Source: Planctomycetota bacterium | GTDB taxonomy: Bacteria > Planctomycetota > UBA1135 | Direction: 5' to 3' | Length of the DNA: 13,525 nt | Assembly (NCBI GenBank): GCA_029243845.1 | Contig: JAQWRF010000143.1 | Location: 1 to 13,525, forward strand | Shown here: positions 1-13,525 of the stretch, one piece after another | Position numbering within the stretch: position 1 is the first letter of the stretch | Layout: every line of letters begins with the position of its first letter | The notes under the pieces: generated by a model | What the model saw: only the letters and a program-made list of their open reading frames with translations | Databases searched by the model: none | Told to the model about the DNA's origin: nothing | Program-made: the position numbers and the translations under genes

Positions 1-1257
1 TTATTGCCCATCGCGCTGTTTCCGCTGCTTGGCATTCTTGACGGACGCACCACTGCTGCCACCTACTTCAATCATCTGATTTTTCTTTTCATCGGCGGTT
101 TTCTTTTTGCTATCGCCATGCAACGCTGGGATTTACATCGGCGCATTGCGCTACGTATTTTACGTTTCTTGGGAACTCGCCCCACTCGTGTTTTACTCGG
201 GTTCATGTGCTCCACTTGGTTTCTCTCAATGTGGATTAGTAACACCGCGGCCACCATGATGATGGTCCCCATGGCAATGGCAATCATCGGACCATTTCGC
301 GAACACCTCGACAAGCAAGAGGCGCGACGCTTCTCAATAGTATTAGTGCTAGGCGTTGCATACGCCGCGTCTATCGGCGGGATCTCAACACTAATCGGCA
401 CCCCGCCTAACATGTCACTAGCGCGTATTCTAGAACTTAACTTCCCAAACATGGAGGAACTAACATTCGCTGGGTGGTTTCGTTTCGCCTTTCCGTTATC
501 ACTAATCTTTATGTTGACCGCATGGTTTACGTTATCAAAAATCGCACGCCTCTCCGGCATAAACGCATCCATCGACAAAAACTACTTTCATCAGCAATAC
601 CAGCAACTCGGCAAAGTAACTTATGAGCAACGCGCCATCGGCGGTTTGTTTCTACTACTTATATTCGGTTGGATGTTCCGCAGTGAATGGTCGCAGCTAT
701 TCCCTCATCCAAAATATATTGATGACGGCACCGTCGCCATCATCATCGCTATTTTACTTTTCTTAATCCCGTCAAAGAAAAATCCTGGTGAAAAGCTGAT
801 GGACTGGGCCGCGGCCAAAGAAATTCGTTGGGGAATCATTTTAATGTTTGGCGGAGGATTCGCTTTAGCAACAGGATTTATTGAATCCGGTTTGTCGGAA
901 TCCCTTGGCGAACAACTCACCTCACTGCAAAATGTTCCGCTATGGATGCTAATCACCATCATCTGCACCGTGATTACTTTCCTGACTGAGCTAACCTCCA
1001 ACATGGCTACTACCGAAGTGGTTTTGCCGATTCTGGCTGCGATGGCCAAGGCGATTGGTGTCAACCCATTGGTACTAATGATTCCTGCAACATTATCGGC
1101 ATCTTGCGCGTTTATGCTGCCCGTTGCTACAGCGCCAAATGCAATAGCCTTTGGTGCTGGTGAGGTAAAGATTAAAGACATGATTCGCTATGGCTTCATC
1201 CTTAACATCATTGGCATCGTTTTGATTAGTGCAGCTGCACAGCTACTGTATATTTGA
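1..1257 (+). CDS. DASS/SLC13-family sodium:carboxylate symporter (5' partial)
   Basis: This is an inner-membrane transporter of the divalent anion:sodium symporter family, expected to import di- or tricarboxylates (or sulfate-like anions) with Na+. The frame is open from base 1, so the N-terminus lies outside the window; about 418 residues remain against a usual 460-520. Hydrophobic segments run throughout. The first binding-site motif Ser-Asn-Thr is at residues 79-81 (counting from codon 2). The second has the form Ser-Asn-Met at 332-334, in the context ELTSNMATTEVVLP. GGISTLIGTPPN (125-136) and AFMLPVATAPNAIAFGAG (369-386) are typical of the family; the latter closely resembles citrate/dicarboxylate carriers. 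Its stop is 5 nt before the next gene's ATG, so it is probably co-transcribed with the catabolic genes and supplies their substrate. The family call is firm; the substrate is unknown. Confidence 0.93.
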   Translation, partial: LLPIALFPLLGILDGRTTAATYFNHLIFLFIGGFLFAIAMQRWDLHRRIALRILRFLGTRPTRVLLGFMCSTWFLSMWISNTAATMMMVPMAMAIIGPFREHLDKQEARRFSIVLVLGVAYAASIGGISTLIGTPPNMSLARILELNFPNMEELTFAGWFRFAFPLSLIFMLTAWFTLSKIARLSGINASIDKNYFHQQYQQLGKVTYEQRAIGGLFLLLIFGWMFRSEWSQLFPHPKYIDDGTVAIIIAILLFLIPSKKNPGEKLMDWAAAKEIRWGIILMFGGGFALATGFIESGLSESLGEQLTSLQNVPLWMLITIICTVITFLTELTSNMATTEVVLPILAAMAKAIGVNPLVLMIPATLSASCAFMLPVATAPNAIAFGAGEVKIKDMIRYGFILNIIGIVLISAAAQLLYI

Positions 1258-1262
1258 TTCCA

Positions 1263-3239
1263 ATGACGTCCTCGTCCACCCATCCTACTTTAATTGAGCG
1301 TGTTCGCACATCACGCGAGCTTGGTTCAAGCCCTGATTACGTCCTACATGGCGGTGGCAACACATCGGCCAAAGGAACGGTCAAAAACTTGCTTGGCGAA
1401 GACATTGAAGTAATGTGGGTAAAAGGGTCCGGATGGGACCTCGGCAGCATCGAGGCACCAGGCTTACCTGCATTAGACTTGCAACAATTGCGAAAATTAC
1501 GCGAAGTGAAAAGCATGACTGACGAAGAAATGGTTCGCGAAGTGCGGCGCTGCATGCTCGATCCTAAAGGTCCAAGCCCATCGGTAGAAACTTTACTGCA
1601 CGCTTTTTTGCCGCACACCTTTATTGACCACAGTCATGCCGACGCGATTCTCGCTTTGAGTAACCGCGAAAATGGTGTCGAGCTATGCCAGAAAATATTT
1701 GGTTCGCGAGTGGCCTACCTGCATTACGTCATGCCGGGGTTCCCTTTATCAAAAGCGGTCGCTGACTTAGTCGATGCCAATCCCGATGTCGATGGCGTGT
1801 TACTGCACCACCATGGCTTATTTACTTTTGCTGATTCGGCTGATGAGTCGCTCAACATTCACCGCGAACTCGTTTCGCTGGCAGAGCAACAGTATGCCGA
1901 CGACAAGCAAGCGGTATTGGCGGCAACTGCAAAGCCACGACTTAAAGCGAGTGAGGTGTTACCAAGCATTCGTAACTGTTACGGCAATGAGCCGCACTTC
2001 GTTTTTGAATTACGCGATCCGGCATGGATTCTGGCGTTGCTAGATCAAGATGATGCGCAACAACTTTTAATCAGCCCACCCCTCACCCCTGACCATGCGA
2101 TTCGCACCAAGTCATTACCGTGCTGGATCGATGGCGAGCCGTCCGTATCTATTGACGCCTACGCGATTGCTTATCACGACTATTTCCAACGTGGGTGCAA
2201 GGCACGTGGGTCACGCACTGAATTAGACAACTTGCCGCGCTTGTTGTTGATTCCTGGATTGGGTTTGGTCGGCGTGGGGACCTCGGCCAAAGCAGCTGGT
2301 ATCGCCGCCGATATTGCCGAACATACTTTGCTGACAAAAGCCGCCGCGAAAAACCTCGGGCTCTACAAAGGCTTAGACGACTTAAACTTATTCGACATGG
2401 AATACTGGTCGTTAGAGCAAGCTAAGCTCGGCAGCGGCAAACCAGCCGAGTTAGCTGGGCAAGTAGCGGTGATCACCGGAGGCGCGGGCGCCATCGGCGA
2501 AGGCATCGCCGAGGTATTACTTAATGCCGGAGCAAGTGTCGCATTACTCGATTACGATTTAGATGCTGCCGTCAATACCGCAGCGCGACTCGGTCCACAG
2601 GTCCTTGCCGTAAAAGCCGATGTTACCGATGCCGATTCACTCGATGCCGCGCTGGAGCAAGTGTGCCGCCAGTTCGGTGGCATCGACATTGTGGTGCCTA
2701 ACGCCGGAGTCGCGCACTCGGCATCCATACTCGACCATGAGCTCAGCGACTGGCAACGCATTAACGACGTCAATCAAACCGGAGTGTTTCTTACTCTTCG
2801 CGCATGCGGACGTATTCTGAAAGCCCAAGCAACTGGTGGCGCAGTGGTGCTCATTTCCTCGAAAAACGTACTCGCCCCAGGCGCTGATTTTTCGGCGTAC
2901 TCTGCTTCGAAAGCCGGAGCGCATCAACTCGCAAAAGTGGCGGCGCTCGAATGGGCCAGCGACGACATTTGCGTGAACATGGTTTGCCCAGATGCCGTTT
3001 TTAGAGCTGGCGATAATGCATCCGGCCTATGGAATGAAATCGGCCCCGATCGTGCCAAGTCGCGCGGCCTGTCATCAGACGAACTCGAAGAGTTCTACCG
3101 TGACCGATGTTTACTCAAAACAGAAGTAAGCGCCACTGCTGTTGGTGAGGCGGTATTATTTTTTGCCGCACGCCGCACCCCGACAACCGGCGGTGTTATT
3201 AATGTAGACGGTGGTGTTGCCGCTGCCTTCCCCCGATAA
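1263..3239 (+). CDS. Bifunctional class II aldolase/short-chain dehydrogenase (RhaD-type fusion)
   Basis: This is a fusion of a zinc-dependent class II aldolase/adducin domain (about residues 10-390) with an NAD(P)-dependent short-chain dehydrogenase (about 400-658). In the aldolase half, HGGGNTSAKG lies near the N-terminus, followed by PSVETLLHAF, DHSHAD (likely Zn ligands) and HHHGLFTF. The linker EYWSLEQAKLG is typical of rhamnulose-1-phosphate aldolase/lactaldehyde dehydrogenase fusions. In the SDR half, TGGAGAIG binds the cofactor, an Asp ends the second strand (LLDYD, suggesting NAD+), and NAG, a Ser pair and YSASK form the catalytic set. The length (658 aa) is near the family norm of about 690. 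A TTG at 1254 would overlap the transporter stop by 4 nt; I chose ATG 1263, although neither has a ribosome binding site. It probably cleaves a sugar or acid-sugar phosphate and oxidises or reduces one product. No rhamnose isomerase or kinase is nearby, so rhamnose is not assured as substrate. Confidence 0.92.
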   Translation: MTSSSTHPTLIERVRTSRELGSSPDYVLHGGGNTSAKGTVKNLLGEDIEVMWVKGSGWDLGSIEAPGLPALDLQQLRKLREVKSMTDEEMVREVRRCMLDPKGPSPSVETLLHAFLPHTFIDHSHADAILALSNRENGVELCQKIFGSRVAYLHYVMPGFPLSKAVADLVDANPDVDGVLLHHHGLFTFADSADESLNIHRELVSLAEQQYADDKQAVLAATAKPRLKASEVLPSIRNCYGNEPHFVFELRDPAWILALLDQDDAQQLLISPPLTPDHAIRTKSLPCWIDGEPSVSIDAYAIAYHDYFQRGCKARGSRTELDNLPRLLLIPGLGLVGVGTSAKAAGIAADIAEHTLLTKAAAKNLGLYKGLDDLNLFDMEYWSLEQAKLGSGKPAELAGQVAVITGGAGAIGEGIAEVLLNAGASVALLDYDLDAAVNTAARLGPQVLAVKADVTDADSLDAALEQVCRQFGGIDIVVPNAGVAHSASILDHELSDWQRINDVNQTGVFLTLRACGRILKAQATGGAVVLISSKNVLAPGADFSAYSASKAGAHQLAKVAALEWASDDICVNMVCPDAVFRAGDNASGLWNEIGPDRAKSRGLSSDELEEFYRDRCLLKTEVSATAVGEAVLFFAARRTPTTGGVINVDGGVAAAFPR

Positions 3240-3242
3240 ATC

Positions 3243-4103
3243 ATGATTGTACCTCGCACTACTCGCCCTGAAATACTCAAGAAACTAACGGCCAAAGTTG
3301 CCGCTCGCAAACCGCTATTGATTTCCTCCGCAGGAAGTGGACTCGTTGCAAGCCTTTTAGAAAAAGCCGGGGCCGATTGCGTAAACACTTTTTCCGGTGC
3401 GCGACTGCGGGCTAATGGCATGGGAACCATGTCCATGATGTGGCCGATTCTCGACTCGAATCAGCAAGTTTACGACAACACCACTCAAGATGTGTTGCCA
3501 GCGATGAAGGGCGATGCGTTTGTTTGCGCCTGCATCAACGCCAACGATCCGCTGCGCGATATGCGCAGCTATTTACAAAGCTTGCTCGATGCCGGTATCC
3601 CATCGGTATCGAACATCGGCCCCTCGGTAAGTTATGTTGACAAAGAATCGAACCTCTACCAAGTTCTACGCAAAAGCGGCGTTACCTTCGAGAACGAAAT
3701 TGAAATGTTAGCGCTAGCCAAAGAGATGGGCATGGTCACCATTGGCTTAGCCTTTGATTTGGACGACGCCCGACAATTACTTGAGGGGGCCAAGCCTGAC
3801 ATCTTTTGTTTTCATGCGGGCACCACTAAAGGTGGCTTAGTCGGTTTTGATTCCGGTGAGACCATTGCCGAGACTGCTAGACGTAGTGAAGAAGCCTACC
3901 AAATGGCGCGCGACATTCATCCCGAGGTGTTGCTCGTCGGACATGGCGCCGCAATGGAAACTCCGGAAGACGCCGCATACATGTTGGCGAACACTAGCGG
4001 TCATGGCATCTGGACAGGATCATCCACAGAACGTCTACCGATTGAAAAGGCCGTATTCGCCGCCGCATCAGAATTCGCTAACCTAGAATTTCCAAATGAA
4101 TAA
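3243..4103 (+). CDS. PEP-hydrolase-like TIM-barrel protein (Tm-1 C-terminal-domain homologue)
   Basis: This 286-aa protein belongs to the TIM-barrel family annotated as phosphoenolpyruvate hydrolase-like, related to the PEP mutase/isocitrate lyase fold. It is also the family of the C-terminal half of plant Tm-1 proteins. Visible signatures are ISSAGSGLVA (27-36), NTFSGARLRANGMGT (48-62), SNIGPSV (123-129), HAGTTKGGLVG (191-201), VGHGAAMETPEDA (232-244) and GIWTGSSTERLPIE (255-268), where relatives usually have GASSxERLP. No signal peptide or membrane segment is present, so it is cytoplasmic. It starts 3 nt after the aldolase/SDR stop, with no Shine-Dalgarno sequence, and overlaps the Tm-1-like gene by 8 nt, which suggests translational coupling. 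The catalytic activity is not established for this family; a lyase or hydrolase step on a keto- or hydroxy-acid is inference. Confidence 0.9.
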   Translation: MIVPRTTRPEILKKLTAKVAARKPLLISSAGSGLVASLLEKAGADCVNTFSGARLRANGMGTMSMMWPILDSNQQVYDNTTQDVLPAMKGDAFVCACINANDPLRDMRSYLQSLLDAGIPSVSNIGPSVSYVDKESNLYQVLRKSGVTFENEIEMLALAKEMGMVTIGLAFDLDDARQLLEGAKPDIFCFHAGTTKGGLVGFDSGETIAETARRSEEAYQMARDIHPEVLLVGHGAAMETPEDAAYMLANTSGHGIWTGSSTERLPIEKAVFAAASEFANLEFPNE

Positions 4104-5313
4104 TAAAACCGTCGTCGTCATTGCGACCCTTGATACCAAAGGTGAAGAAGCTGCTTTTGTGAAACAGCAAATATCTGCACTCGGAGGCCATGCGCTACTT
4201 CTAGATATTGGATTGATCGGAGAACCGGGCACCGCTCCCGATATTGATCGCGCCACGGTCATTCAAAGCGGCGGTTCTAGCCTCGAAACTCTGCTTGATA
4301 ATCCTCAGCGACAAGAAGCGTCTCCCGTTTTTATCGCCGGCGCTATCGCAATCCTTAACGAGATGCTCGACAACGACGAAGTGCATGCTGTACTAGGGTT
4401 CGGCGGAACTCAAGGCACGAGTAATTGCGCGGCGATAATGCAGGCACTTCCATTTGGTTTGCCAAAAATTATTTTATCGACTATGGCCTCTGGTGACACG
4501 TCAGCATTCGTCGATATTAAAGACATCACCATGATGTTTGCGGTCAGTGACATTCTTGGACTCAATCCCCTATCGCGCACCATTTTATCTAATGCCGCCG
4601 CTGCCGCCTGGGGAATGTCGCAGTCGCCATTTAAGTTGCAGCGCAACAGTGAAAAAGCCGTAATAGGCATGACCAACCTCGGCGTGATTACCGACGGCGC
4701 CATGCATGCCATGAAATTGTTTCGCGAAGCCGGACACGAAGTCATTGTGTTTCACGCTATTGGTGCTGGCGGTCGTGCCATGGAACAACTGATGAAAGAA
4801 GGTCATATCCAAGCAGTTTTCGATTACGCCTTGGGTGAAATCTCCGACGAAGTGCATGGCGGATTCCGTTCTGCAGGCGAAGAACGCCTGACAGTCGCCG
4901 GGAAATTAGGAATCCCACAAGTGCTATGCCCTGGCGGTACCGAGCACATTGGATTATTCACTGAAGCAAATGTCGTACCTGAAGAGTATAAAGATCACGT
5001 GTCGGTATTCCATAACCCGATTATTTTCGTGCCGCGCCTCAATGCCGACGATATGCGCCAAGTCGCTAAAGTAATTGGTAAACGACTACAACATACGTCT
5101 GGCAAAGCAACGATGTTGTTACCCATGAAAGGCACTAGCCGCTACTGCATCGAGGGCGCCCCACTCTATGACCCAGAAGCCGACGCTGCATTCTTCGAAG
5201 AACTACAGAAGTGTTTACCGCGCACAGTCGAAGTGCAATTAGTCGATGCCGCAGCTGAAGATGACGTTTTTGTCGAGCTAGCAGTAACAAAGTTACTCGA
5301 CATGCTTGACTAA
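4096..5313 (+). CDS. Tm-1-like ATP-binding protein (UPF0261 family)
   Basis: This 405-aa cytoplasmic protein has the full length usual for the UPF0261/Tm-1-like family, the N-terminal half of the tomato mosaic virus resistance protein Tm-1. Hallmarks are ATLDTKGEE (10-18), GFGGTQGTSN (101-110), STMASGDTSAFVDIKDITMM (128-147), GLNPLSRTILSNAAAAAWGM (155-174), MTNLGVITDG (192-201), FHAIGAGGRAME (219-230) and CPGGTEH (278-284). The Gly-rich segments are thought to form the nucleotide site seen in Tm-1. Its start lies inside the preceding TIM-barrel gene (8-nt overlap, ATGAATAA), and the two proteins are fused in plants and fungi, so a physical complex is likely. Within this operon an ATP-dependent activation step, replacing the missing sugar kinase, is a reasonable but unproven guess. 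I know of no firmly established biochemical role for bacterial members. Confidence 0.93.
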   Translation: MNNKTVVVIATLDTKGEEAAFVKQQISALGGHALLLDIGLIGEPGTAPDIDRATVIQSGGSSLETLLDNPQRQEASPVFIAGAIAILNEMLDNDEVHAVLGFGGTQGTSNCAAIMQALPFGLPKIILSTMASGDTSAFVDIKDITMMFAVSDILGLNPLSRTILSNAAAAAWGMSQSPFKLQRNSEKAVIGMTNLGVITDGAMHAMKLFREAGHEVIVFHAIGAGGRAMEQLMKEGHIQAVFDYALGEISDEVHGGFRSAGEERLTVAGKLGIPQVLCPGGTEHIGLFTEANVVPEEYKDHVSVFHNPIIFVPRLNADDMRQVAKVIGKRLQHTSGKATMLLPMKGTSRYCIEGAPLYDPEADAAFFEELQKCLPRTVEVQLVDAAAEDDVFVELAVTKLLDMLD

Positions 5314-5328
5314 ATTCTTTCTTCCGTG

Positions 5329-6042
5329 ATGCAAAAAATACTTCAAGCTGCCCTCATCTTATTGTGGGTAAGCTGCGCGCAACTCCCAGGCCCAATTGTC
5401 CTCGCCGGCGGAGGATCTTTTGACGACGCGTTCTTTCGCCGTACTTTACAATTATCCGAGACTGCGCATCCTGCAGTGATCATTTTCCCACAAGCTTCGC
5501 AACGCGAAGAAGCCGGTAGCGAATCGTCGCAGATTTGGACCCGTGCTGGCGCAGCATCTACCTTCGTTGCTGACTTTCGCTCGACCCAAGGATGGGATTC
5601 CACTCTAGAACACCTCTCCAAAGCCAATGTCATTTGGTTCACCGGCGGTAGTCAATTGCGCTTAGTCGCTGCGATGGAATCCGCCGAATTTCTCCAGCAC
5701 ATCAAAGCGCGTTGGCGTGAAGGCGCGGTCATCGGCGGTACTAGCGCCGGAGCCTCAGTGATGGGCGAGATCATGCCGTCAGGCAAAGAGCTCTATCCTG
5801 GATTCGGGATTTGCAAGAATACCATCGTTGACCAGCACTTCACCGAGCGTAACCGACAGCCCCGCTTACGATATGCCGTGCGGGTGCATCATGGCTATAG
5901 GGGCCTTGGCATATCTGAAGGCACCGCCGTTTTCCTGCATGGTCGCTACGCCCGCACATACGGTAGCGGCATGGTGCATGTTTATGAATCGGCAGAAGCA
6001 CTAAAAGTTTTGCCACCGAATTCTGTAGAGAGTCTCTACTAA
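5329..6042 (+). CDS. Cyanophycinase-like S51 family peptidase, possible lipoprotein
   Basis: This 237-aa protein belongs to the S51 serine peptidase group (cyanophycinase / alpha-aspartyl dipeptidase fold). The nucleophile elbow GGTSAGAS (Ser about residue 139) is present, as are FTGGSQLRL (the conserved Gln-Leu loop), DQHFTERNRQPRLRYAV (the His region of cyanophycinases) and GLGISEGTAV. Its length is below the 270-290 residues common for cyanophycinase. The N-terminus (MQKILQAALILLWVSC) looks like a short lipoprotein signal ending in Cys, but the Trp at -3 is atypical, so export is uncertain. A GTG at 5326 directly precedes the chosen ATG; neither has a Shine-Dalgarno sequence. It follows the Tm-1-like gene by 15 nt and is probably the last gene of the operon. 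Cyanophycinases cleave beta-Asp-Arg peptides; the substrate here is unknown. Confidence 0.85.
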   Translation: MQKILQAALILLWVSCAQLPGPIVLAGGGSFDDAFFRRTLQLSETAHPAVIIFPQASQREEAGSESSQIWTRAGAASTFVADFRSTQGWDSTLEHLSKANVIWFTGGSQLRLVAAMESAEFLQHIKARWREGAVIGGTSAGASVMGEIMPSGKELYPGFGICKNTIVDQHFTERNRQPRLRYAVRVHHGYRGLGISEGTAVFLHGRYARTYGSGMVHVYESAEALKVLPPNSVESLY

Positions 6043-7344
6043 TTATTGACATTCGGCTTTAATCGCAGCCACCGTCGGAGACGATTCTGTTCCTAGGCCA
6101 ACTAGCTGGTGTGCTATTCTTCCTGCGGAATCTAAAGTTGTAATAATGTTCGAATGTGCGAAATTGCCCTTGATGCCTTTTTTATAACGTACGCCCAAAG
6201 CAGCAGCAATACCGCGAACAGCGAAGTCGTCGCCATGCAGTAAAGTCCAACGCGAGGTATCTAGATTATTTTTTTCAGCGTAGGCTTGTAAAACTTCTGG
6301 GGTGTCACGCTCACTGTCCATGGAAACAAGCAGCCAACGCACTTTACCTAATTGTTCGGCAGGTATTTCTTTTTCGATCTCTTTAAGATCGAGCATGGTG
6401 CGCGGGCAAGCATATTCGCAATGAGTAAATATCATCACCGCCACCACCACTTGCCCTACAAAGTCACTAAGGGCGCGCTCGCCACCACTTTGGTCACGCC
6501 AAAGTCCGTCCGTTAAATAAATGGACTCGTTGGGCAAAGCAGCAGTAGCGGAAGATGGCTCTAGCGGTAGACAGCAATCAGCGACGTATGCATCTGCCAC
6601 ACATCTAAACCCAACATTCGGGTAAGTTTGATTGGCTATAAAGCTATTACGGAAAGACAGGCGAAAAGACGCCACATCATTGGAATCAGAATCGGCTATT
6701 TCAACATTGCCACAAAACAGCTTGGTGACATCGCTCGTTTGTCCATATCCAGCCATCAAGGTAGAAGGCTTATTGAAGTCATCAACCCACTCCCAAATCA
6801 AACCATGCATATCGAACAGCTGATAATAATTCGGCTTACCTGATCGAACTGCCGTTGGTATCTCAGGCATTTGCCGTTGGTACCAGTCGAGAATGGTTTG
6901 CTGATAGCGCTTCTCTTGGCTGCCATCGGCGACTGTCTCGCTAGCGAGGGCGAGAGATTCCCATTCATCTTGCGTAGCCAACCGACGCCCAGCCCATCGC
7001 GCATATTCACGTGCTGCAAACCAAGAGACGTTGGTTACTGGAGAGTTAGCACTTCCCTCAGGGTATTCAAAGTCGCCAAGCCAATGCTGCAAATAGTTTT
7101 CGCCGACTAAAACAGCCGCTGCCTGGGAGCGAAGCCACGCTGGACTCGAAATCACGAAGTTGCGAAACTGTGCGTTCGTGACGGGATGCTCTTCCACTAG
7201 CAAATCGACAAAGGCACCCTCTGCGATTTTCACCATTGGAGTTAAGGGGGTCTCAGACGCCATAGGCCCTGGCTTACTTTCACTACAACTCGTTAGAAAT
7301 AGTGAAGAAATGACCGCTACGATGACTAGGTAAGAGACTCTCAT
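6043..7344 (-). CDS. Lipoprotein fusing NirV-like SUMF1/FGE domain with SCO1/SenC domain
   Basis: This is a 433-aa exported protein. The lipoprotein signal is MRVSYLVIVAVISSLFLTSC, with lipobox LTSC. A SUMF1/FGE-type domain follows (about residues 36-250), with NSPVTNVSWFAAREYARWAG, RRLATQDEWE, FDMHGLIWEWVDDF and NVGFRCV. The canonical FGE catalytic Cys pair is not evident; the segment LFCGNVEI...FRLSFRNSF resembles NirV-type members linked to denitrification. The C-terminal SCO1/SenC thioredoxin-fold domain (about 270-433) keeps the copper ligands: CEYACP (CxxxCP) and the distal His in NFAHSN. SCO proteins metallate or reduce copper sites of cytochrome oxidase or N2O/nitrite reductases in the periplasm. 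An upstream ATG at 7356 would add MGLV; I prefer 7344 because GGGG sits about 6 nt ahead of it. No nir, nos or cox gene is in the window. Confidence 0.9.
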   Translation of the reverse strand: MRVSYLVIVAVISSLFLTSCSESKPGPMASETPLTPMVKIAEGAFVDLLVEEHPVTNAQFRNFVISSPAWLRSQAAAVLVGENYLQHWLGDFEYPEGSANSPVTNVSWFAAREYARWAGRRLATQDEWESLALASETVADGSQEKRYQQTILDWYQRQMPEIPTAVRSGKPNYYQLFDMHGLIWEWVDDFNKPSTLMAGYGQTSDVTKLFCGNVEIADSDSNDVASFRLSFRNSFIANQTYPNVGFRCVADAYVADCCLPLEPSSATAALPNESIYLTDGLWRDQSGGERALSDFVGQVVVAVMIFTHCEYACPRTMLDLKEIEKEIPAEQLGKVRWLLVSMDSERDTPEVLQAYAEKNNLDTSRWTLLHGDDFAVRGIAAALGVRYKKGIKGNFAHSNIITTLDSAGRIAHQLVGLGTESSPTVAAIKAECQ

Positions 7345-7369
7345 TACTAGCCCCATGATACACCATCAA

Positions 7370-9262
7370 CTAGTCAGAAAACTCTGACAATTCTTCCCAA
7401 CGCTTGGTTTTAGCGACAATAAGCGCTTCTAACTCGGCGCGCCGTTTCTGCAGTACCGCAAGCTGCTTATCGGCTGTCGCGTATATCTCAGGGTCGGAGA
7501 GCTTCGAATCGAGGGTCGCCATTTCTTTTTCAATGGTTGTGACCTCGTCGAGCAAGCCGTCAAACTCGAGACGCTCTTTATTATTCAATTTACGCTTCGA
7601 CGTAGACTTTTTCCCTTCAGGGTTTGCCATAACCGGCATTTTTTCGGCTACCTGCTCGACAATCCCTTCATCCGGAGACCAGCGGTCAAGGAGTGAACTG
7701 ACATCACCGGTGTGCAAGAACGCACCACCGCGATCGTCAAGATATAGAACGTGAGTTGCGACGCGGTCTAAGAACCAGCGGTCGTGGCTAACCAACAACA
7801 CGCAACCATAAAAAGCACACAAGGCTTCTTCAAGCGCGCGCAACGTATTAAGGTCGAGGTCGTTTGTAGGTTCGTCGAGAACCAACACATTGCAATCTTG
7901 CAGCAACAATTTGGCGAGTAGAACGCGTCCGCGTTCGCCACCTGACAGCGAACCTACCTTGACTAATTTCTTTGCGCCTGGGAACAAGAATGAATTTAAG
8001 AAGCCGGCAATGTGAACTTTGCTTTCGCCGACGACTACGTATTTCCCGGTGCCAGCAATCTCTTCCATGACGGTCGCTTCATCATCAAGGTCTTCACGTT
8101 TTTGTTCAAGCGTACCAAACTTTACGGTCTCGCCGATGGTGACACTTCCGCCATCTGGCTCGAGTTGGCCGAGCAACAACTTAATCAAAGTCGTTTTACC
8201 AACGCCGTTAGGGCCGACGATACCTAGACGCATTCCGTTTTCAATTTTAAGGTCGAGGCCATTTAAAATTTTCTTTTCGGGATAGGCGAAACGTAAATTT
8301 TCTATTTCAATGACTTTAGAACCCAAGCGCGGCCCGCGCGGGATTTCCATTTCAAGTTTCACATCGCTTTCTAAAGACTTAGAACTGGCCAAAGCATCAA
8401 AGCGTTTAATGCGTGCATTCGCTTTAGTACCGCGCCCAAGGACGCCCGCGCGCATCCACGCGGTTTCACGTTTCAACAAAGCCAGGCGGGTATTCTCTGA
8501 CTTCTCTTGAGAGGCAATACGTTCGATGCGCAACCTCAAGTACTCGTTGTAGTTACCAGGGTAGGAGTAGATAGAACCACGATCGACTTCGACAATTTTA
8601 TTCACAACGCGATCGAGCAAAAAGCGATCGTGTGTCACCAACACTAACGGAACCTTCATTTGCGTCAGCTGCTTTTCAAGCCAAGCAATCACAAAAGCAT
8701 CGAGGTGGTTAGTCGGCTCGTCGAGCAGCATCAGGTCAGGTGCCGACACTAACAATTTGGCTAGTGCCACACGTCGCGCCTCACCGCCGGATAGATTACC
8801 GCAAGTTAACGACGCGTCTTTCAAACCCACGCCATGGATGGACGCCGCAATTTTATGCTCGACATCATGACCACCGAGTCGTTCAAGCTGATGCTCAAGG
8901 TCTTCGATACGATCGGACACATCTGCCCCATCCGCTAGCTTTTCATAAGTCGCAAACAATCTTGTTTGAACGGCATGATGTTCACTTAAGCCCTCGCGGA
9001 CGGCATCCTCAATAGTGAGGTCGTTATCGAACACCGGCTCTTGCTCGAGATAGCCGATACGTAAACCGTTGCGCAACACACGGGTGCCACTATCTAGAGT
9101 GTCGACTCCCGCCATCATCTTTAGCAACGTCGACTTGCCCGCTCCGTTAGGACCAATCAAACCGATGCGGTCTTGCGAAGTAACGGTTAAATCAACCTTC
9201 GTCAACAACGGGCGGTTGTCGTCGTAAGCTTTGCTTACTCCTTGGAGGGTGATGAGCGGCAT
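7370..9262 (-). CDS. uup: ABC-F family ATPase, Uup-like
   Basis: This 630-aa soluble protein has two ABC ATPase domains and no membrane segments. The first domain has Walker A GPNGAGKST (37-45), signature LSGGE (157-161) and Walker B LDEPTNHLD (180-188). The linker (about 240-310) contains ETAWMRAGVLGRGTKANARI, the arrangement that marks Uup within ABC-F. The second domain has GPNGVGKTT (350-358), LSGGE (439-443) and LDEPTNDLD (462-470). A charged C-terminal extension (about 560-630) looks like the coiled-coil DNA-binding tail of Uup. ABC-F proteins act on the ribosome; E. coli Uup also affects transposon excision and ribosome assembly. The gene lies 22 nt downstream of the NHL lipoprotein gene and 25 nt upstream of the SCO fusion, so it probably shares their transcript. 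The family call is very firm; the exact paralogue (Uup versus another ABC-F) is slightly less so. Confidence 0.95.
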   Translation of the reverse strand: MPLITLQGVSKAYDDNRPLLTKVDLTVTSQDRIGLIGPNGAGKSTLLKMMAGVDTLDSGTRVLRNGLRIGYLEQEPVFDNDLTIEDAVREGLSEHHAVQTRLFATYEKLADGADVSDRIEDLEHQLERLGGHDVEHKIAASIHGVGLKDASLTCGNLSGGEARRVALAKLLVSAPDLMLLDEPTNHLDAFVIAWLEKQLTQMKVPLVLVTHDRFLLDRVVNKIVEVDRGSIYSYPGNYNEYLRLRIERIASQEKSENTRLALLKRETAWMRAGVLGRGTKANARIKRFDALASSKSLESDVKLEMEIPRGPRLGSKVIEIENLRFAYPEKKILNGLDLKIENGMRLGIVGPNGVGKTTLIKLLLGQLEPDGGSVTIGETVKFGTLEQKREDLDDEATVMEEIAGTGKYVVVGESKVHIAGFLNSFLFPGAKKLVKVGSLSGGERGRVLLAKLLLQDCNVLVLDEPTNDLDLNTLRALEEALCAFYGCVLLVSHDRWFLDRVATHVLYLDDRGGAFLHTGDVSSLLDRWSPDEGIVEQVAEKMPVMANPEGKKSTSKRKLNNKERLEFDGLLDEVTTIEKEMATLDSKLSDPEIYATADKQLAVLQKRRAELEALIVAKTKRWEELSEFSD

Positions 9263-9284
9263 GGTCGCGCATAGTCTAATAGAA

Positions 9285-10247
9285 TTAGCGCTCGATTGTG
9301 AGGTGGCTTAGGCGCCCCCGAAAATTCCAATCACTTACCCAGATGTCACCGTTTTTGCCCCAGGCCGCACAGTGTGGCGACAAGAAGATACCGTCGCTCC
9401 ATTTATCGTAATCGACACGGTTAGTTGCACGCAAGGCCGGATCAGGCTGCTCGCCTAAGTGCTTCAGCACCTCTCCCGCCCGGTTAAGAATGGTCACTCG
9501 TCCTTCTAGCTCGGCGACAAGCCATCCGTCTTCATTGATATCGACGTGGCAAGGCCTATTGAGCACGGCTGGTACGCTGCTGCTGAACGTACCATCGGTG
9601 TTGAATAATTGCAGACGGCGGTTTTCGCGATCGGCGACGACCACCTTATTGAGGTATGCGTCGTAGCTAATGCCATGCGGTGTTTTGAACTTACCGGCTT
9701 CAGAGCCCCAGCCACCAAAGCATGATTGCCAATTACCTTCAGCATCGTAGATATGCACCCATGATTTTCCGTAGCCATCCGCGACCATGAAGCGCCCATC
9801 TGGCAGCACGGTCACCGAGGTTGGAGCGTATTCATCTGCAGAGTTGTACTTGCCGGACTCTTGCGGCCAAGCGACACTCAACAACACTTCGCCATCGAGT
9901 GACCGTTTCTGAACTTGATGCTGAGCAGTGTGCGCCACAAACAAATACTCGGTATCTCCTTCCTGAACAATTTCTAAGCCGTGTAAGCCACCGGACAAAT
10001 CTTCACCGATGTTTTTCTTAAAAACACCGTTTGCGTCAAACACGAAAATAGCTGGCTTGCTGTCGGTACAAAGATAGACGTCTCCGTTATTCGCTACGTC
10101 CACACAACCATGAGTGTTGCCTAAGGTGACGCCAGGTGGCAGAGACATCGCACTACTTTGCCATGCGTAAGAATAAGGCTGGAGTGGAGCAATCATGCAA
10201 CCAGCAATTAGGGATAAGACACACAGTACAAAGGTGGGTTTGGCCAT
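9285..10247 (-). CDS. NHL-repeat beta-propeller lipoprotein (peptidylglycine amidating lyase-like)
   Basis: This 320-aa exported protein has an N-terminal lipoprotein signal with lipobox IAGC (Cys17). The rest is a chain of NHL-type repeats forming a predicted six-bladed propeller. Blades recur at NTHGCVDVANNGDVYLCT, APTSVTVLPDGRFMVADG, TPHGISYDAYLNKVVVADRE, RPCHVDINEDGWLVAE and SPHCAAWGKNGDIWVSDW. The pattern of a His or Pro at strand entry followed by D-G-x-hydrophobic-VAD resembles peptidyl-alpha-hydroxyglycine alpha-amidating lyases and related bacterial propellers. Lyase activity is not shown, and a carbohydrate- or protein-binding role is equally possible. It is the first gene of a three-gene minus-strand run; a candidate promoter lies at 10309-10336. 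No clear Shine-Dalgarno sequence precedes ATG 10247. Confidence 0.85.
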   Translation of the reverse strand: MAKPTFVLCVLSLIAGCMIAPLQPYSYAWQSSAMSLPPGVTLGNTHGCVDVANNGDVYLCTDSKPAIFVFDANGVFKKNIGEDLSGGLHGLEIVQEGDTEYLFVAHTAQHQVQKRSLDGEVLLSVAWPQESGKYNSADEYAPTSVTVLPDGRFMVADGYGKSWVHIYDAEGNWQSCFGGWGSEAGKFKTPHGISYDAYLNKVVVADRENRRLQLFNTDGTFSSSVPAVLNRPCHVDINEDGWLVAELEGRVTILNRAGEVLKHLGEQPDPALRATNRVDYDKWSDGIFLSPHCAAWGKNGDIWVSDWNFRGRLSHLTIER

Positions 10248-10270
10248 GGAGCATATGATATGTTCCCGAA

Positions 10271-10286
10271 TGGCTGGCGTCAGCCA
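10271..10286. repeat. Short perfect hairpin in lipoprotein leader
   Basis: TGGCTG, a 4-nt loop GCGT, then CAGCCA form a perfect 6-bp stem. It lies about 24 nt upstream of the ATG of the minus-strand NHL lipoprotein and inside its likely 5' leader. No U-tract follows on either strand, so it is not an intrinsic terminator. It may be an operator, a leader structure, or chance. Confidence 0.3.
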
Positions 10287-10308
10287 AACGGTATCTACTC
10301 TGTGGGGC

Positions 10309-10336
10309 AGTCTAAATACTTTATTTTGGCAGTAAA
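10309..10336 (-). promoter_or_regulatory. Candidate sigma-70 promoter for the lipoprotein-uup-SCO run
   Basis: On the minus strand, TTTACT (10336-10331, 4/6 to TTGACA) is followed after 16 nt by TAGACT (10314-10309, 4/6 to TATAAT). Transcription would start near 10302, giving a leader of about 55 nt that includes the hairpin at 10271-10286. The hexamer GGCAGT (plus strand) recurs at 10306-10311 and 10328-10333, 22 bp apart, overlapping both promoter elements. The call rests on weak consensus matches only. Confidence 0.3.
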
Positions 10337-10345
10337 TTGGGTGTA

Positions 10346-10367
10346 ATAATCAGAGAATCGTGATTAT
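10346..10367. repeat. 7-bp inverted repeat, operator-like
   Basis: ATAATCA and TGATTAT are perfect reverse complements separated by 8 bp (22 bp in all), a size and symmetry typical of a dimeric regulator site. The left arm overlaps an extended -10-like sequence on the plus strand (TGTAATAAT, 10342-10350), and the site lies just upstream of the minus-strand promoter candidate. No cognate regulator gene is in the window. Confidence 0.4.
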
Positions 10368-10594
10368 GGGTCGCCGTGCGGTGTAGTGGGCAATAATTGC
10401 ACTCATTTCTCGAACCTCGCAGCGAGCCAATATAGACTAAACCGCTATGTGAGCGAGAGTTTCGTCACCTTCACTGCCCTCCAATCGGTGGCCATGCCCA
10501 AAGGCGGCCATCACTATCATAATGCCATAGATCGGCATAAAAGCCCTTCTGAGATAGCCGCAGCCACAAATTTCAAGTAAACATATTGCAAAAT

Positions 10595-10633
10595 TATACA
10601 AATTAAGCACATTTACTTGCGCAACGCTAGAAT
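10595..10633 (+). promoter_or_regulatory. Candidate promoter region for the RRM gene
   Basis: Two weak -10-like hexamers precede the RRM start. TATACA (10595-10600) has a poor -35, TTTCAA, 18 nt upstream; TAGAAT (10628-10633, 5/6 to TATAAT) has no good -35. Either would give a leader of about 35-70 nt. The segment is distinctly AT-rich relative to its surroundings, as expected of a promoter, but the exact element is unresolved. Confidence 0.22.
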
Positions 10634-10676
10634 GCTCACCTTGGCCATCCTGGCCTCACTCTTAATAAATAATATA

Positions 10677-10973
10677 ATGCGACTTTTTGTTGGTAACCTT
10701 CCTTGGAGCATCGGTGACGATGAGCTCCGTGATCTTTTTTCTGAATTCGGCGAAGTAACCGACAGTAAAGTAATTAACGACCGCGAAACCGGTCGCTCTC
10801 GTGGCTTCGGATTCATCGAAATAGATGATGACGGTGGCGAAGCTGCAATCAAGAGCCTAGATGGTTCTGAGCAAGATGGTCGCGATATCCGCGTAAATGT
10901 TGCTGAAGAGCGCAAGCCACGCGATAATAATCGCGGCGGTGGCGGCGATCGTCGCGATAACAACCGCTGGTAA
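10677..10973 (+). CDS. Small RRM-domain RNA-binding protein with Gly/Arg-rich tail
   Basis: This 98-aa protein is a single RNA recognition motif plus a short tail. RNP2 is LFVGNL (residues 3-8) and RNP1 is RGFGFIEI (42-49), with the ELRDLFSEFGEV helix between them. The tail (about 78-98) is rich in Arg, Gly, Asn and Asp (NNRGGGGDRRDNN). The domain begins at ATG 10677. The frame stays open upstream to a TTG at 10617, but the extra 20 residues match nothing in the family, so I exclude them. There is no Shine-Dalgarno sequence before the ATG. Such proteins in Proteobacteria and cyanobacteria are thought to be RNA chaperones, often cold-induced. Transcription is monocistronic and converges on lemA, with 25 nt between the stop codons. 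Confidence 0.92.
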   Translation: MRLFVGNLPWSIGDDELRDLFSEFGEVTDSKVINDRETGRSRGFGFIEIDDDGGEAAIKSLDGSEQDGRDIRVNVAEERKPRDNNRGGGGDRRDNNRW

Positions 10974-10982
10974 ACACTAGCC

Positions 10983-11000
10983 AAGCTAAACTTATAGCTT
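10983..11000. repeat. Small inverted repeat between convergent genes
   Basis: AAGCTA, a 6-nt loop AACTTA, and TAGCTT make a perfect 6-bp stem in the 25-bp gap between the RRM and lemA genes, running into the lemA stop codon. The plus strand continues with AAAAAG rather than a T-run, so it is a poor intrinsic terminator for the RRM transcript. It could still protect 3' ends. Confidence 0.25.
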
Positions 11001-11550
11001 AAAAAGATACCTGGGGTGCTTCACGCATCTCAGGTATTTCTATTTCAAAGAACTCGCGCGGCGTGAAACTATACATACCGGCGATGACATTCGACGGAAA
11101 CTGCTGAACTTTATTATTATTCTCGCGAATGTTGCCGTTATAAAAACGCAACGCAGCCTGAATACGGTTTTCAGTGTTTGCCAATTCTAATTGTAATTCG
11201 GCAAAATTGGTGCTGGCCTTCAAATCTGGATAAGCCTCAAGCCTCACCATCAAACTGGAAAGAGCGCCCTGCAATGCCATTTCATCGACCGCCTGAGAAG
11301 CCACGTCGCCATTATTAGCAGACGCTTTCTCGCGCATCTCTGTCACCTTTGCCAGCAACTCGCTTTCGTGCTTTGCATACCCCTTTACGGTATTGATTAA
11401 ATTCGGAATTAAATCGTAGCGGCGCTTTAATTCGGTATCGACATTCGACCAAGCCTCGTCGCATTGATTGCGAATAGAAACAAGCCCGTTGTACATGATT
11501 ATGCCGATTGTAAGAGCAAAAAGTGGTATTCCTATTATGGCGTAAGTCAT
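10999..11550 (-). CDS. lemA: LemA family protein
   Basis: This 183-aa protein has an N-terminal membrane segment (about residues 3-22) followed by the helical LemA domain. Family features are easily seen: YNGLVSIRNQCDEAWSNVDT (20-39), LKRRYDLIPNLINTVKGYA, then ALSSLMVRLEAYPDLKAS, FAELQLELANTENRI, ALRFYNGNIRENN and a C-terminal FTPREFFEIE. LemA proteins are membrane-anchored with the helical domain outside the cytoplasm; their molecular role is not settled. The start codon shares one base with the stop of the upstream gene (TAATG), so translation is probably coupled. Confidence 0.96.
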   Translation of the reverse strand: MTYAIIGIPLFALTIGIIMYNGLVSIRNQCDEAWSNVDTELKRRYDLIPNLINTVKGYAKHESELLAKVTEMREKASANNGDVASQAVDEMALQGALSSLMVRLEAYPDLKASTNFAELQLELANTENRIQAALRFYNGNIRENNNKVQQFPSNVIAGMYSFTPREFFEIEIPEMREAPQVSF

Positions 11551-12218
11551 TATTTTCTAAAAAGGTAGTCGGGCATTAGTGATCGAATCTTGATCAAGTG
11601 TTGTAAGTAGTAATCGAGCTCGTCCGGTTCTAGCCTATGAGTATCATACAAAGCCAAAGTGTCTCCGTCGAGCTCTAAAGCGGTGCTTTGATGCTTCAGC
11701 AAGTATTCCATCATTCCGGTATTACAAAAATCATACGCAAGTTTCTTGTCACCAGACTTCACAGCGAACTTCTTGGAGAACTCTACCGACTCGAAGTCGA
11801 TATCGTCGAATCCTAAGAACTGACCTATCTTCGAGAAAAAACCTTCCGGCTGAATATGCAACTCCGGAAAAGGTTGCTCGATTTTAATAGCGATGATTCC
11901 GAGATGATGGTGATGCGTTCGACGATGGCCCTTTGAGTTTGTCGAGTAGGTCTCATAATGATAAGTGAAGGCATCAGCAGCATAGCCCTGGTAGTCGCCG
12001 TGTAAATAATCGTACGCATAGCGATTGCTGCCTTGATTCAATTTATCCAAGAACGAAAGCCGGCGTCCTAGTTCACGGCTACGGTTAGGGTCGAATTCGA
12101 AATCATTCGCTGCCGCCCAGGCTATAAACCCTTCTCGGCGTTTTTTATGGTACTGCCAAGAAAAGTAGAACACCGCAGCAACAGCCGCGGCGATGAGGAC
12201 GATTAATAATGGGTCCAT
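11550..12218 (-). CDS. Membrane-anchored protein of unknown function, lemA-linked
   Basis: I do not recognise the family with confidence. The protein is 222 aa. One membrane segment (about 4-20) is followed by a basic stop-transfer (HKKRREG), placing the rest in the cytoplasm if the usual positive-inside rule applies. The soluble part is rich in aromatic and charged residues, with a run of four His (THHHHLG) and the segments FIAWAAANDFEFDPNRSREL and YDTHRLEPDELDYYLQHL. The layout resembles DUF3137-type proteins that often accompany LemA, which is my best guess. ATG 12218 overlaps the end of the upstream nucleotidyltransferase gene by 16 nt; a TTG at 12224 is an alternative. The 3' end overlaps lemA by 1 nt. 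Confidence 0.75.
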   Translation of the reverse strand: MDPLLIVLIAAAVAAVFYFSWQYHKKRREGFIAWAAANDFEFDPNRSRELGRRLSFLDKLNQGSNRYAYDYLHGDYQGYAADAFTYHYETYSTNSKGHRRTHHHHLGIIAIKIEQPFPELHIQPEGFFSKIGQFLGFDDIDFESVEFSKKFAVKSGDKKLAYDFCNTGMMEYLLKHQSTALELDGDTLALYDTHRLEPDELDYYLQHLIKIRSLMPDYLFRK

Positions 12219-13525
12219 AACCAAGTCAGTGCTTGCTCGCGATCGGCGAGATTACCTTCAATTTGAAGATCATAAGCAAGCTCTAGGATTTTACCCATTC
12301 CTGGGCCAGGCTCAATGCCATGAGAAATTAAATCTTGGCCGCGCAAAAAGTTTTTTGGTGCTTCATCCTTTACTCCCAAACTTGCAGCTCGTTCTAGCAA
12401 CCATACTTCCGGAGCCCACGGCAACTCAAACGGTTTCAGGCGTCCGGCGAAATCAGCGAAAGAGACACGGCACAGCGCAGGGATATTCACCCGTGTGGAT
12501 AGACGGCGAATCGCGGCATCGCTCACTTTGTCGCGCTCGAGATACAACTGCCCCGGACGTAAATGCTCACGCACTAAATCACAAACCAACGGCACCACAT
12601 CATTTTGTCCATTAATGCGCGCCAACAATTCTTTGGTTGGCTCGACGCCACCAACATCATGCGCGGGACATCGCCAGCGCTCGCGCTCGAATACGGTGTG
12701 CGTAGCCTTGCCAAGATCATGGCAGAGTACACCAAGCATTTCTGCCCACACATTCTCCATTTCGTCACGGCGTAATACAGCAGCATCGAGGCACAAAGCG
12801 GTATGAATCAACACATCGCCCTCAGGGTGCCACTCAGGGTCTTGCGGTACTTCGCGCAAACACGATAACTCGGGGAAATGCATTAATGCGCCCGTTTGCT
12901 CTAAGGCCAATAAGCCCTTGCCCGGATGATCGCATTTCTCGAGCATCAATCGAAACTCGCCTTCGATACGCTCGCGCGGCAATTCTGAAATGTCAATCGA
13001 CTTACACAGCTCTACCGTTTCGTCGGCGATTGCAAAATCGAAGCTCGCCACAAAACGCGCGGCCCGCAAAACACGTAACGGGTCTTCGATGAAAGTCGGA
13101 GAAACATGACGCAGCACCTTTCTCTCTAAATCGCCGACGCCATCATGGAAATCGAATATCTCGCCCGTCAGCACATCTTGCATTAAAGCATTGACCGTGA
13201 AATCACGGCGCAGCACGGCCTCTTCTTTTTGCATGCGTGGGTCTGATTTTATCTCGAAGCCCTTGTGCCCGGGACCCGTTTTAGATTCGCGCCGTGGCAA
13301 GGCAACTTCAACCTCGTCCCCATCATCAAACACCAACAGCAGCACGGCAAATTGCTTGCCGATTAGATGGACTTTGCCAAATTTAGCCAACAGGTTCTCG
13401 AGATCGTCCACTTCGATTCCGTAGACCTCAAGATCAAAGTCTTTGCACTCTCTATTTAGCAACTGATCGCGCACAGCTCCACCTACAAAATACGCCCTGC
13501 CCCCTGCCGCTTCGACAGCAGTGGC
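12203..13525 (-). CDS. cca: tRNA nucleotidyltransferase / poly(A) polymerase with HD domain (5' partial)
   Basis: The frame is open to the window edge, so the N-terminus is missing; 440 residues are visible. Counting from the edge, YFVGGAVRD (12-20) is the nucleotide-binding loop of class II nucleotidyltransferases and KDFDLE (28-33) holds the two catalytic Asp. RRDFTVNAL, the DGVGDLERKVLR segment and EDPLRVLRAARF follow in the normal order. A metal-binding HD domain is next (HTALCLDAA, CHDLGKATH), and the end has GIEPGPGMGKIL as in CCA-adding enzymes. The family either builds the tRNA CCA end or polyadenylates RNA. The HD domain and C-terminal motif favour CCA addition, but the two cannot be separated by eye. 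It is the first visible gene of a minus-strand operon and overlaps the next gene by 16 nt. Confidence 0.92.
   Translation of the reverse strand, partial: ATAVEAAGGRAYFVGGAVRDQLLNRECKDFDLEVYGIEVDDLENLLAKFGKVHLIGKQFAVLLLVFDDGDEVEVALPRRESKTGPGHKGFEIKSDPRMQKEEAVLRRDFTVNALMQDVLTGEIFDFHDGVGDLERKVLRHVSPTFIEDPLRVLRAARFVASFDFAIADETVELCKSIDISELPRERIEGEFRLMLEKCDHPGKGLLALEQTGALMHFPELSCLREVPQDPEWHPEGDVLIHTALCLDAAVLRRDEMENVWAEMLGVLCHDLGKATHTVFERERWRCPAHDVGGVEPTKELLARINGQNDVVPLVCDLVREHLRPGQLYLERDKVSDAAIRRLSTRVNIPALCRVSFADFAGRLKPFELPWAPEVWLLERAASLGVKDEAPKNFLRGQDLISHGIEPGPGMGKILELAYDLQIEGNLADREQALTWLWTHY

Follow-up and report, generated by a model that had tools for sequence, protein, structure and literature searches.

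A recurrent module of UPF0261, PF09370 and class II aldolase/dehydrogenase genes in a planctomycete contig, with a possible role in phosphorylation-dependent aldol cleavage

The contig JAQWRF010000143.1 of a Planctomycetota bacterium (lineage UBA1135; assembly GCA_029243845.1), 13,525 nucleotides long and analysed over its full length (the window), begins with an operon in which three genes constitute a unit that recurs in other genomes: those of a PF09370 'PEP hydrolase-like' TIM barrel, a UPF0261 (Tm-1-like) protein, and a fusion of a class II aldolase with a short-chain dehydrogenase/reductase (SDR). We hold at about even chances the reading that this operon is a phosphorylation-dependent aldol-cleavage pathway of three steps: putative phosphorylation by the UPF0261 protein, with ATP, of a hydroxyl or enol of an imported small hydroxy-carbonyl compound; conversion of the phosphorylated product by the PF09370 protein, which in this weakest of the proposed steps would most likely act as an isomerase yielding a ketose 1-phosphate; and, as the chemistry of the family would predict, cleavage of the ketose phosphate by the class II aldolase domain to dihydroxyacetone phosphate (DHAP) and an aldehyde that the fused SDR would oxidize with NAD+. 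The UPF0261 and PF09370 proteins would stand where MtnK and MtnA stand in 5-deoxyribose salvage, or RhaA and RhaB in rhamnose utilization; nothing in the operon resembles a classical kinase or isomerase.

The window is an entire contig of a fragmented assembly (1.8 Mb in 391 contigs, 85% complete), and a near-identical contig, with 98% protein identity, belongs to Planctomycetota bacterium isolate ANT-129. The genes at its beginning are as follows.

1-1257, plus strand: DASS-family (SLC13-type) sodium/carboxylate symporter (TIGR00785), its 5' end lost at the contig edge.
1254 (TTG) or 1263 (ATG)-3239, plus strand: class II aldolase/SDR fusion of the PRK08324.2-2 (NF006194) subfamily.
3243-4103, plus strand: PF09370 'PEP hydrolase-like' TIM barrel, proposed sugar-phosphate isomerase or lyase.
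4096-5313, plus strand: UPF0261/Tm-1-like protein (PF06792, PF23189), proposed ATP-dependent small-molecule kinase.
5326-6042, plus strand: cyanophycinase-like S51 peptidase (PF03575), possible fifth gene of the unit in this genus.

The initial annotation, made from the sequence alone, described the first four genes as a catabolic operon with spacings of 5 and 3 nucleotides and an 8-nucleotide overlap, figures that hold exactly if the ATG at 1263 is taken as the start of the fusion. Its four family assignments are borne out by Pfam and NCBIfam models: TIGR00785 for the DASS protein (262.2 bits against a cut-off of 198.6, scored on the 5'-truncated gene); NF006194 for the fusion (712.9 bits against a curated cut-off of 686, over the whole protein); PF09370 for the TIM barrel (194.7 bits against 33.8, the fold likewise agreeing with that of 2p10); and PF06792 and PF23189 for the Tm-1-like protein (185 and 205.6 bits, with a cut-off of 27 each).

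Sixty loci with relatives of the UPF0261 protein were collected from genome contigs, a retrieval biased towards relatives of the window's own protein, and 55 of them have a PF09370 gene of usable length within 2.5 kb. In the other five the contig end cuts a gene or the partner's place (L012, L022, L056 and L060), or only about 640 nucleotides lie downstream (L047). The simple gene caller misses or mis-starts some genes, and adjacency counts were therefore taken from tblastn. When the 55 loci, the window and four further loci (L122, L123, L134 and L136) were examined for a fusion within 3 kb on the same strand, it was present in 18, absent from 31 and undecidable in 11, that is, present in 18 of 49 decidable loci; all 18 fall in the window's clade of 42 loci, where 18 lack it and 6 are undecidable. 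The positive loci include near copies (the window, L002 and L003 represent one genus), and 15 of them have record titles that all denote metagenome-assembled genomes; together they span Planctomycetota, Bacteroidota, Gemmatimonadota, Pseudomonadota, Chloroflexota and Rhodothermota. Planctomycetota and Saprospiraceae have the fusion gene upstream of the pair; in the remaining loci it lies downstream. Chance adjacency would amount to about 0.0008 per locus, given one fusion per 4 Mb genome and an assumption of independence that relatives violate. On a tree built by a quick method, with SH-aLRT support only and two long-branch rows flagged, the fusion label requires 6 changes, of which supported branches demand at least 4, against a mean of 15 after label shuffling. 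Of the four families grouped in the initial annotation, three thus co-occur and DASS does not, and the catabolic operon stands as a three-gene module recurring across these phyla, with patchy co-occurrence and without its transporter.

The DASS gene is an accessory in the gene string of this genus and was not found with the module elsewhere: among 77 gene-called loci it accompanies the module only in L002, a near-identical relative in which it is full-length (L002:361-1860), and a tblastn check of 90 loci gave the same picture. L004, the next relative, has a subtilase gene before the fusion where DASS would lie. Known only from the window and one congener, DASS was rejected as a core part, and the earlier inference that the operon imports and degrades a carboxylated sugar or hydroxy acid, which hung on the transporter alone, is therefore not supported. 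Upstream of the DASS gene, L002 has one short divergent open reading frame, without a Pfam match, which continues to the end of the contig.

An aldolase plus dehydrogenase role can be assigned to the fusion protein with considerable confidence. Glu112, His126/128/187 and Ser536/Tyr549/Lys553, which we take to be the catalytic Glu, the metal ligands and the SDR triad, are invariant across 21 aligned fusion sequences. The founding member, RhaEW, converts rhamnulose 1-phosphate to DHAP and lactate (PMC3870299). Because the presumed catalytic residues are kept, and in view of RhaEW chemistry, the window's fusion very likely needs a ketose phosphate. No activity report for subfamily NF006194 was found in the literature searched, which lay mostly outside subscription journals. 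Two fusion subfamilies occur beside the pair: among the six loci typed, NF006194 is found in the window and L025, and NF006196 is the closest model in L019, L020, L032 and L033, its cut-off being passed by L019 and L020 only. Related fusions in four annotated plasmid regions, hand-picked from 40 listed of 247 records, lie within about 4 kb of mtnK and mtnA (two regions), in a rhamnose cluster (one) or by a glycerol-3-phosphate dehydrogenase gene (one), and in G013 and G015, two members of the window's family, mtnA is the gene next to the fusion. Fusions without the pair in L126 and L127 have a gene for a FIST-domain protein following them and a molybdopterin oxidoreductase gene nearby.

Established routes to such a ketose phosphate were sought in the window's genome. 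A rhamnose/fucose operon was rejected: the fusion scores 512.7 bits with RhaD_aldol-ADH (TIGR02632), under the cut-off of 567.75; rhamnose isomerase RhaA (PF06134) has 0 matches in the 85%-complete genome (control matches in 3 of 14 genomes); and the upstream kinase and isomerase set that the initial annotation named as evidence to the contrary is not seen in L002 or L004, where neither sugar kinase or isomerase genes nor rhamnose genes precede the module. The DHAP shunt was rejected for the lack of any match to MtnA (PF01008; control matches in 9 of 14 genomes), and a DUF1537 acid-sugar route by the lack of any to PF07005 (control matches in 3 of 14), both in the same 85%-complete genome. As the initial annotation stated, no FGGY, PfkB or DUF1537 kinase is encoded among the contig proteins scanned. 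Other contigs contain one FGGY fragment, which by eye appears glycerol-kinase-like, and two PfkB matches, one of which similarly appears HldE-like; a dedicated kinase elsewhere was rejected on this inspection.

The UPF0261 protein, the only copy in the window's genome, is proposed to be an ATP-dependent kinase, and probably is one. Its solved relative 9mpy (Saro_1862 of Novosphingobium aromaticivorans, 32% identity) has acetovanillone bound, and acetovanillone catabolism in that strain is reported to begin with the kinase MarK (PMC13101465). We infer that Saro_1862, a locus name that no paper in the literature searched was found to mention, is MarK; UPF0261 would then probably have one enzymatically characterized member. 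The bound ligand and the start of the MarK pathway lend support to the earlier suggestion that the Tm-1-like protein performs the activation step, and the 2025 MarK work, on this inferred identity, probably makes outdated the statement that UPF0261 lacks a firm bacterial role. Of 61 residues invariant in the UPF0261 alignment, 44 are identical in 9mpy, among the shared residues being D13, T14, K15, E18, K124, S128, T129, S132, K142, D143, H220, R264 and R314.

The same relative raises the alternative that the operon degrades a phenolic ketone in the manner of MarK in Novosphingobium, by phosphorylation of the phenol followed by side-chain cleavage. The acetovanillone in 9mpy and the MarK pathway (PMC13101465) speak for this, but it is very improbable: the other 17 of the 61 family-invariant residues differ from 9mpy, no biotin-dependent carboxylase or ring-cleavage enzyme is encoded among the ten window proteins scanned, and in related loci the neighbours include a RuBisCO-like protein, FGGY-type kinases and aldolases of sugar phosphates. 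A three-component carboxylase beside the kinase, as in the hydroxyphenylethanone (Hpe/Acv/MarK) pathway, was likewise not found among those ten proteins, the rest of the genome not having been searched for it.

For the PF09370 protein, the name 'PEP hydrolase-like' appears to have been given by analogy; a literal PEP hydrolase function was rejected, no support for it having been found. The isomerase role that we put forward in the aldol-cleavage pathway is putative, a guess that we make tentatively. A less likely reading makes the TIM barrel a C-C lyase akin to PEP mutase and isocitrate lyase, with a 2-oxo or hydroxy acid, free or phosphorylated, as its substrate. The acid would be imported by the DASS transporter, seen only in the window and one congener, and the aldolase/SDR fusion would handle one product of the lyase.

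Several observations weigh against a single pathway of phosphorylation, isomerization and aldol cleavage. A survey of 154 genomes of the window's class (PF09370 at E <= 1e-60; fusion at E <= 1e-90, with 7 candidates scored per genome) found a close PF09370 relative in 41, the fusion in 54 and both in 12; no adjacent fusion was found in 35 of the 41 PF09370 carriers, and in 6 of the 12 doubly positive genomes the two lie on different contigs. The pair has other partners, because most PF09370 carriers are without an adjacent fusion; in the window's clade, genes for ThuA (11 distinct loci) and for haem proteins of the GDSL/PVC type (10) recur flanking it, families that were assigned by Pfam on samples of 2 and 4, respectively, with one of the two ThuA matches below the cut-off. 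The kinase call depends on one relative of 32% identity, with a phenolic-ketone ligand and an inferred identity as MarK, and four of nine plasmid regions with a Tm-1-like gene have no annotated PF09370 gene within 8 kb. In a structure search with the UPF0261 protein no known-kinase-like fold stood out beyond its own family, the matches listed beyond Tm-1 and 9mpy covering mainly residues 1-225, although this result does not count against a kinase. For PF09370 proteins, the literature searched yielded no report of any activity. Finally, a kinase or isomerase encoded elsewhere could have been missed, because the genome is 85% complete.

Another possibility is that two pathways share one transcript, in which case the aldolase/SDR fusion would use a ketose phosphate from another source, such as 5-deoxyribulose 1-phosphate or rhamnulose 1-phosphate, and the UPF0261-PF09370 pair would serve an unrelated purpose. 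Besides the many PF09370 carriers without an adjacent fusion, 12 fusion-bearing genomes of the window's family (at least 56% identity over the matched part) speak for it, since 6 of them lack a close UPF0261 or PF09370 match in the assembly, a count that includes G023, in which the contig ends where the pair would lie. We nevertheless regard this possibility as unlikely: across six phyla the fusion accompanies the pair, in more than one gene order and with more than one fusion subfamily; in another clade an unrelated family of aldolases is linked to the pair; and the 85%-complete genome gave no match to MtnA or RhaA. Within the window's family the pair is present in 6 of 26 genomes and the fusion in 16, and in each of the 6 with the pair the fusion lies next to it; these are the other 6 of the 12 genomes with both. 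Co-presence in the family has a hypergeometric P of 0.035 for presence alone.

The unrelated aldolases belong to a second clade of 17 loci (11 of them from Chloroflexota), in which the order is UPF0261-PF09370 and a class II fructose-bisphosphate-type aldolase gene follows directly or one gene on in 7 (Pfam was run on 2 of these 7); genes for 2-oxoacid dehydrogenase E1 are often present at these loci. In L049 (Chloroflexota), a RuBisCO-like protein and a xylose-isomerase-like barrel, both identified by Pfam, are encoded just upstream of UPF0261, and members of the same clusters precede the pair in L051 (Chloroflexota). Genes of the GDSL/PVC-type haem and ThuA families lie beside the pair in L009, L011, L013, L015, L019 and others; they may mark a second pathway type and perhaps indicate that a sugar or polyol is oxidized in the periplasm and then taken up. 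In the alphaproteobacterial metagenome-assembled genomes L032 and L035, the three genes form an extended cluster with genes for an AraC regulator, an alpha/beta hydrolase, an FGGY-like kinase, a HAD phosphatase, a second class II aldolase and an FMO-like enzyme (families were run on L032, with the hydrolase on its cluster mate L020, and carried to L035 by clustering). The nine plasmid regions with a Tm-1-like gene, hand-picked from the spread of 343 records, have a PF09370 gene adjacent or one gene off in five, an adjacent class II aldolase gene in one (Thermus) and an annotated aldolase/SDR fusion in none, the gene table being incomplete. Among those without annotated PF09370, the Tm-1-like genes of the L142 (Ruegeria) and L143 (Variovorax) plasmids adjoin class III aminotransferase and aldehyde dehydrogenase genes, with a phosphotransferase gene near the former and a HAD hydrolase gene near the latter; these gene sets are probably another UPF0261 pathway.

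The unit in the window was first taken to end at 5313. It may extend to 6042, ahead of a convergent gene, because the S51 peptidase gene starts 12 nucleotides after the UPF0261 gene on the same strand and is conserved in both congeners seen (L002 and L003); it was not found in L004. Promoter and terminator scans gave results at shuffle level (7 sites against 7.3 in shuffles, and 10 against 9.0, respectively). The convergent gene is:

6043-7356, minus strand: FGE-sulfatase-like domain followed by a SCO1/SenC domain in one protein (Pfam).

This pairing of domains looks unusual. The remainder of the window (7370-13525) encodes ordinary neighbours: an ABC-F ATPase, an NHL-repeat protein, an RRM protein, LemA, a CCA tRNA nucleotidyltransferase and a DUF3137-like protein whose score is under the cut-off.

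The operon suggests a testable function for two poorly understood families: given their link to a fused metal-dependent aldolase and dehydrogenase, the chemistry to be considered is narrowed to phosphorylation, rearrangement, cleavage and oxidation. More broadly, though this is doubtful, UPF0261 and PF09370 could be a widespread kinase/isomerase or kinase/lyase pair that opens undescribed aldolase pathways of bacteria and archaea and that could be exchanged for MtnK/MtnA or RhaB/RhaA. If so, a reaction type could be assigned to families of bacteria, archaea, plants and fungi.

Among known systems, DUF1537-dependent tetronate pathways combine a kinase with a class II aldolase/decarboxylase on acid sugars; the logic is alike, whereas the window's genome has no PF07005 match. 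RhaEW has the two-domain architecture (PF00596 and PF00106) of the window's fusion, which by analogy with RhaEW (PMC3870299) is expected to cleave a ketose phosphate and oxidize the aldehyde with NAD+; the window's fusion differs in falling short of TIGR02632, in its NF006194 subfamily and in a genome without detected RhaA. With 5-deoxyribose salvage, or the DHAP shunt (PMC6079011), the operon would share a three-gene logic of activation, isomerization and aldol cleavage, and related fusions have mtnK/mtnA at a distance of about 4 kb or less, or mtnA directly beside them; here UPF0261 and PF09370 would replace the kinase and isomerase families. MarK/Saro_1862 (9mpy) is described as a single-component kinase with an aromatic ketone ligand, whereas the window's UPF0261 protein, 32% identical to it, is paired with PF09370. 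The plant Tm-1-like protein (PDB 3wrw), known for tobamovirus inhibition, has in one fused polypeptide the UPF0261 and PF09370 domains that two adjacent genes, the third and fourth, encode in the window, and co-evolution of the two families across bacteria, archaea and fungi has already been reported (PMC5028733, in passages that do not link the pair to an aldolase). No literature linking the pair to an aldolase was found in our search, which most subscription papers lay outside. If the kinase/isomerase or kinase/lyase role holds, an ancestral function is suggested for plant Tm-1, and the virus-resistance protein of tomato would be a fused, horizontally acquired copy of a two-step metabolic enzyme.

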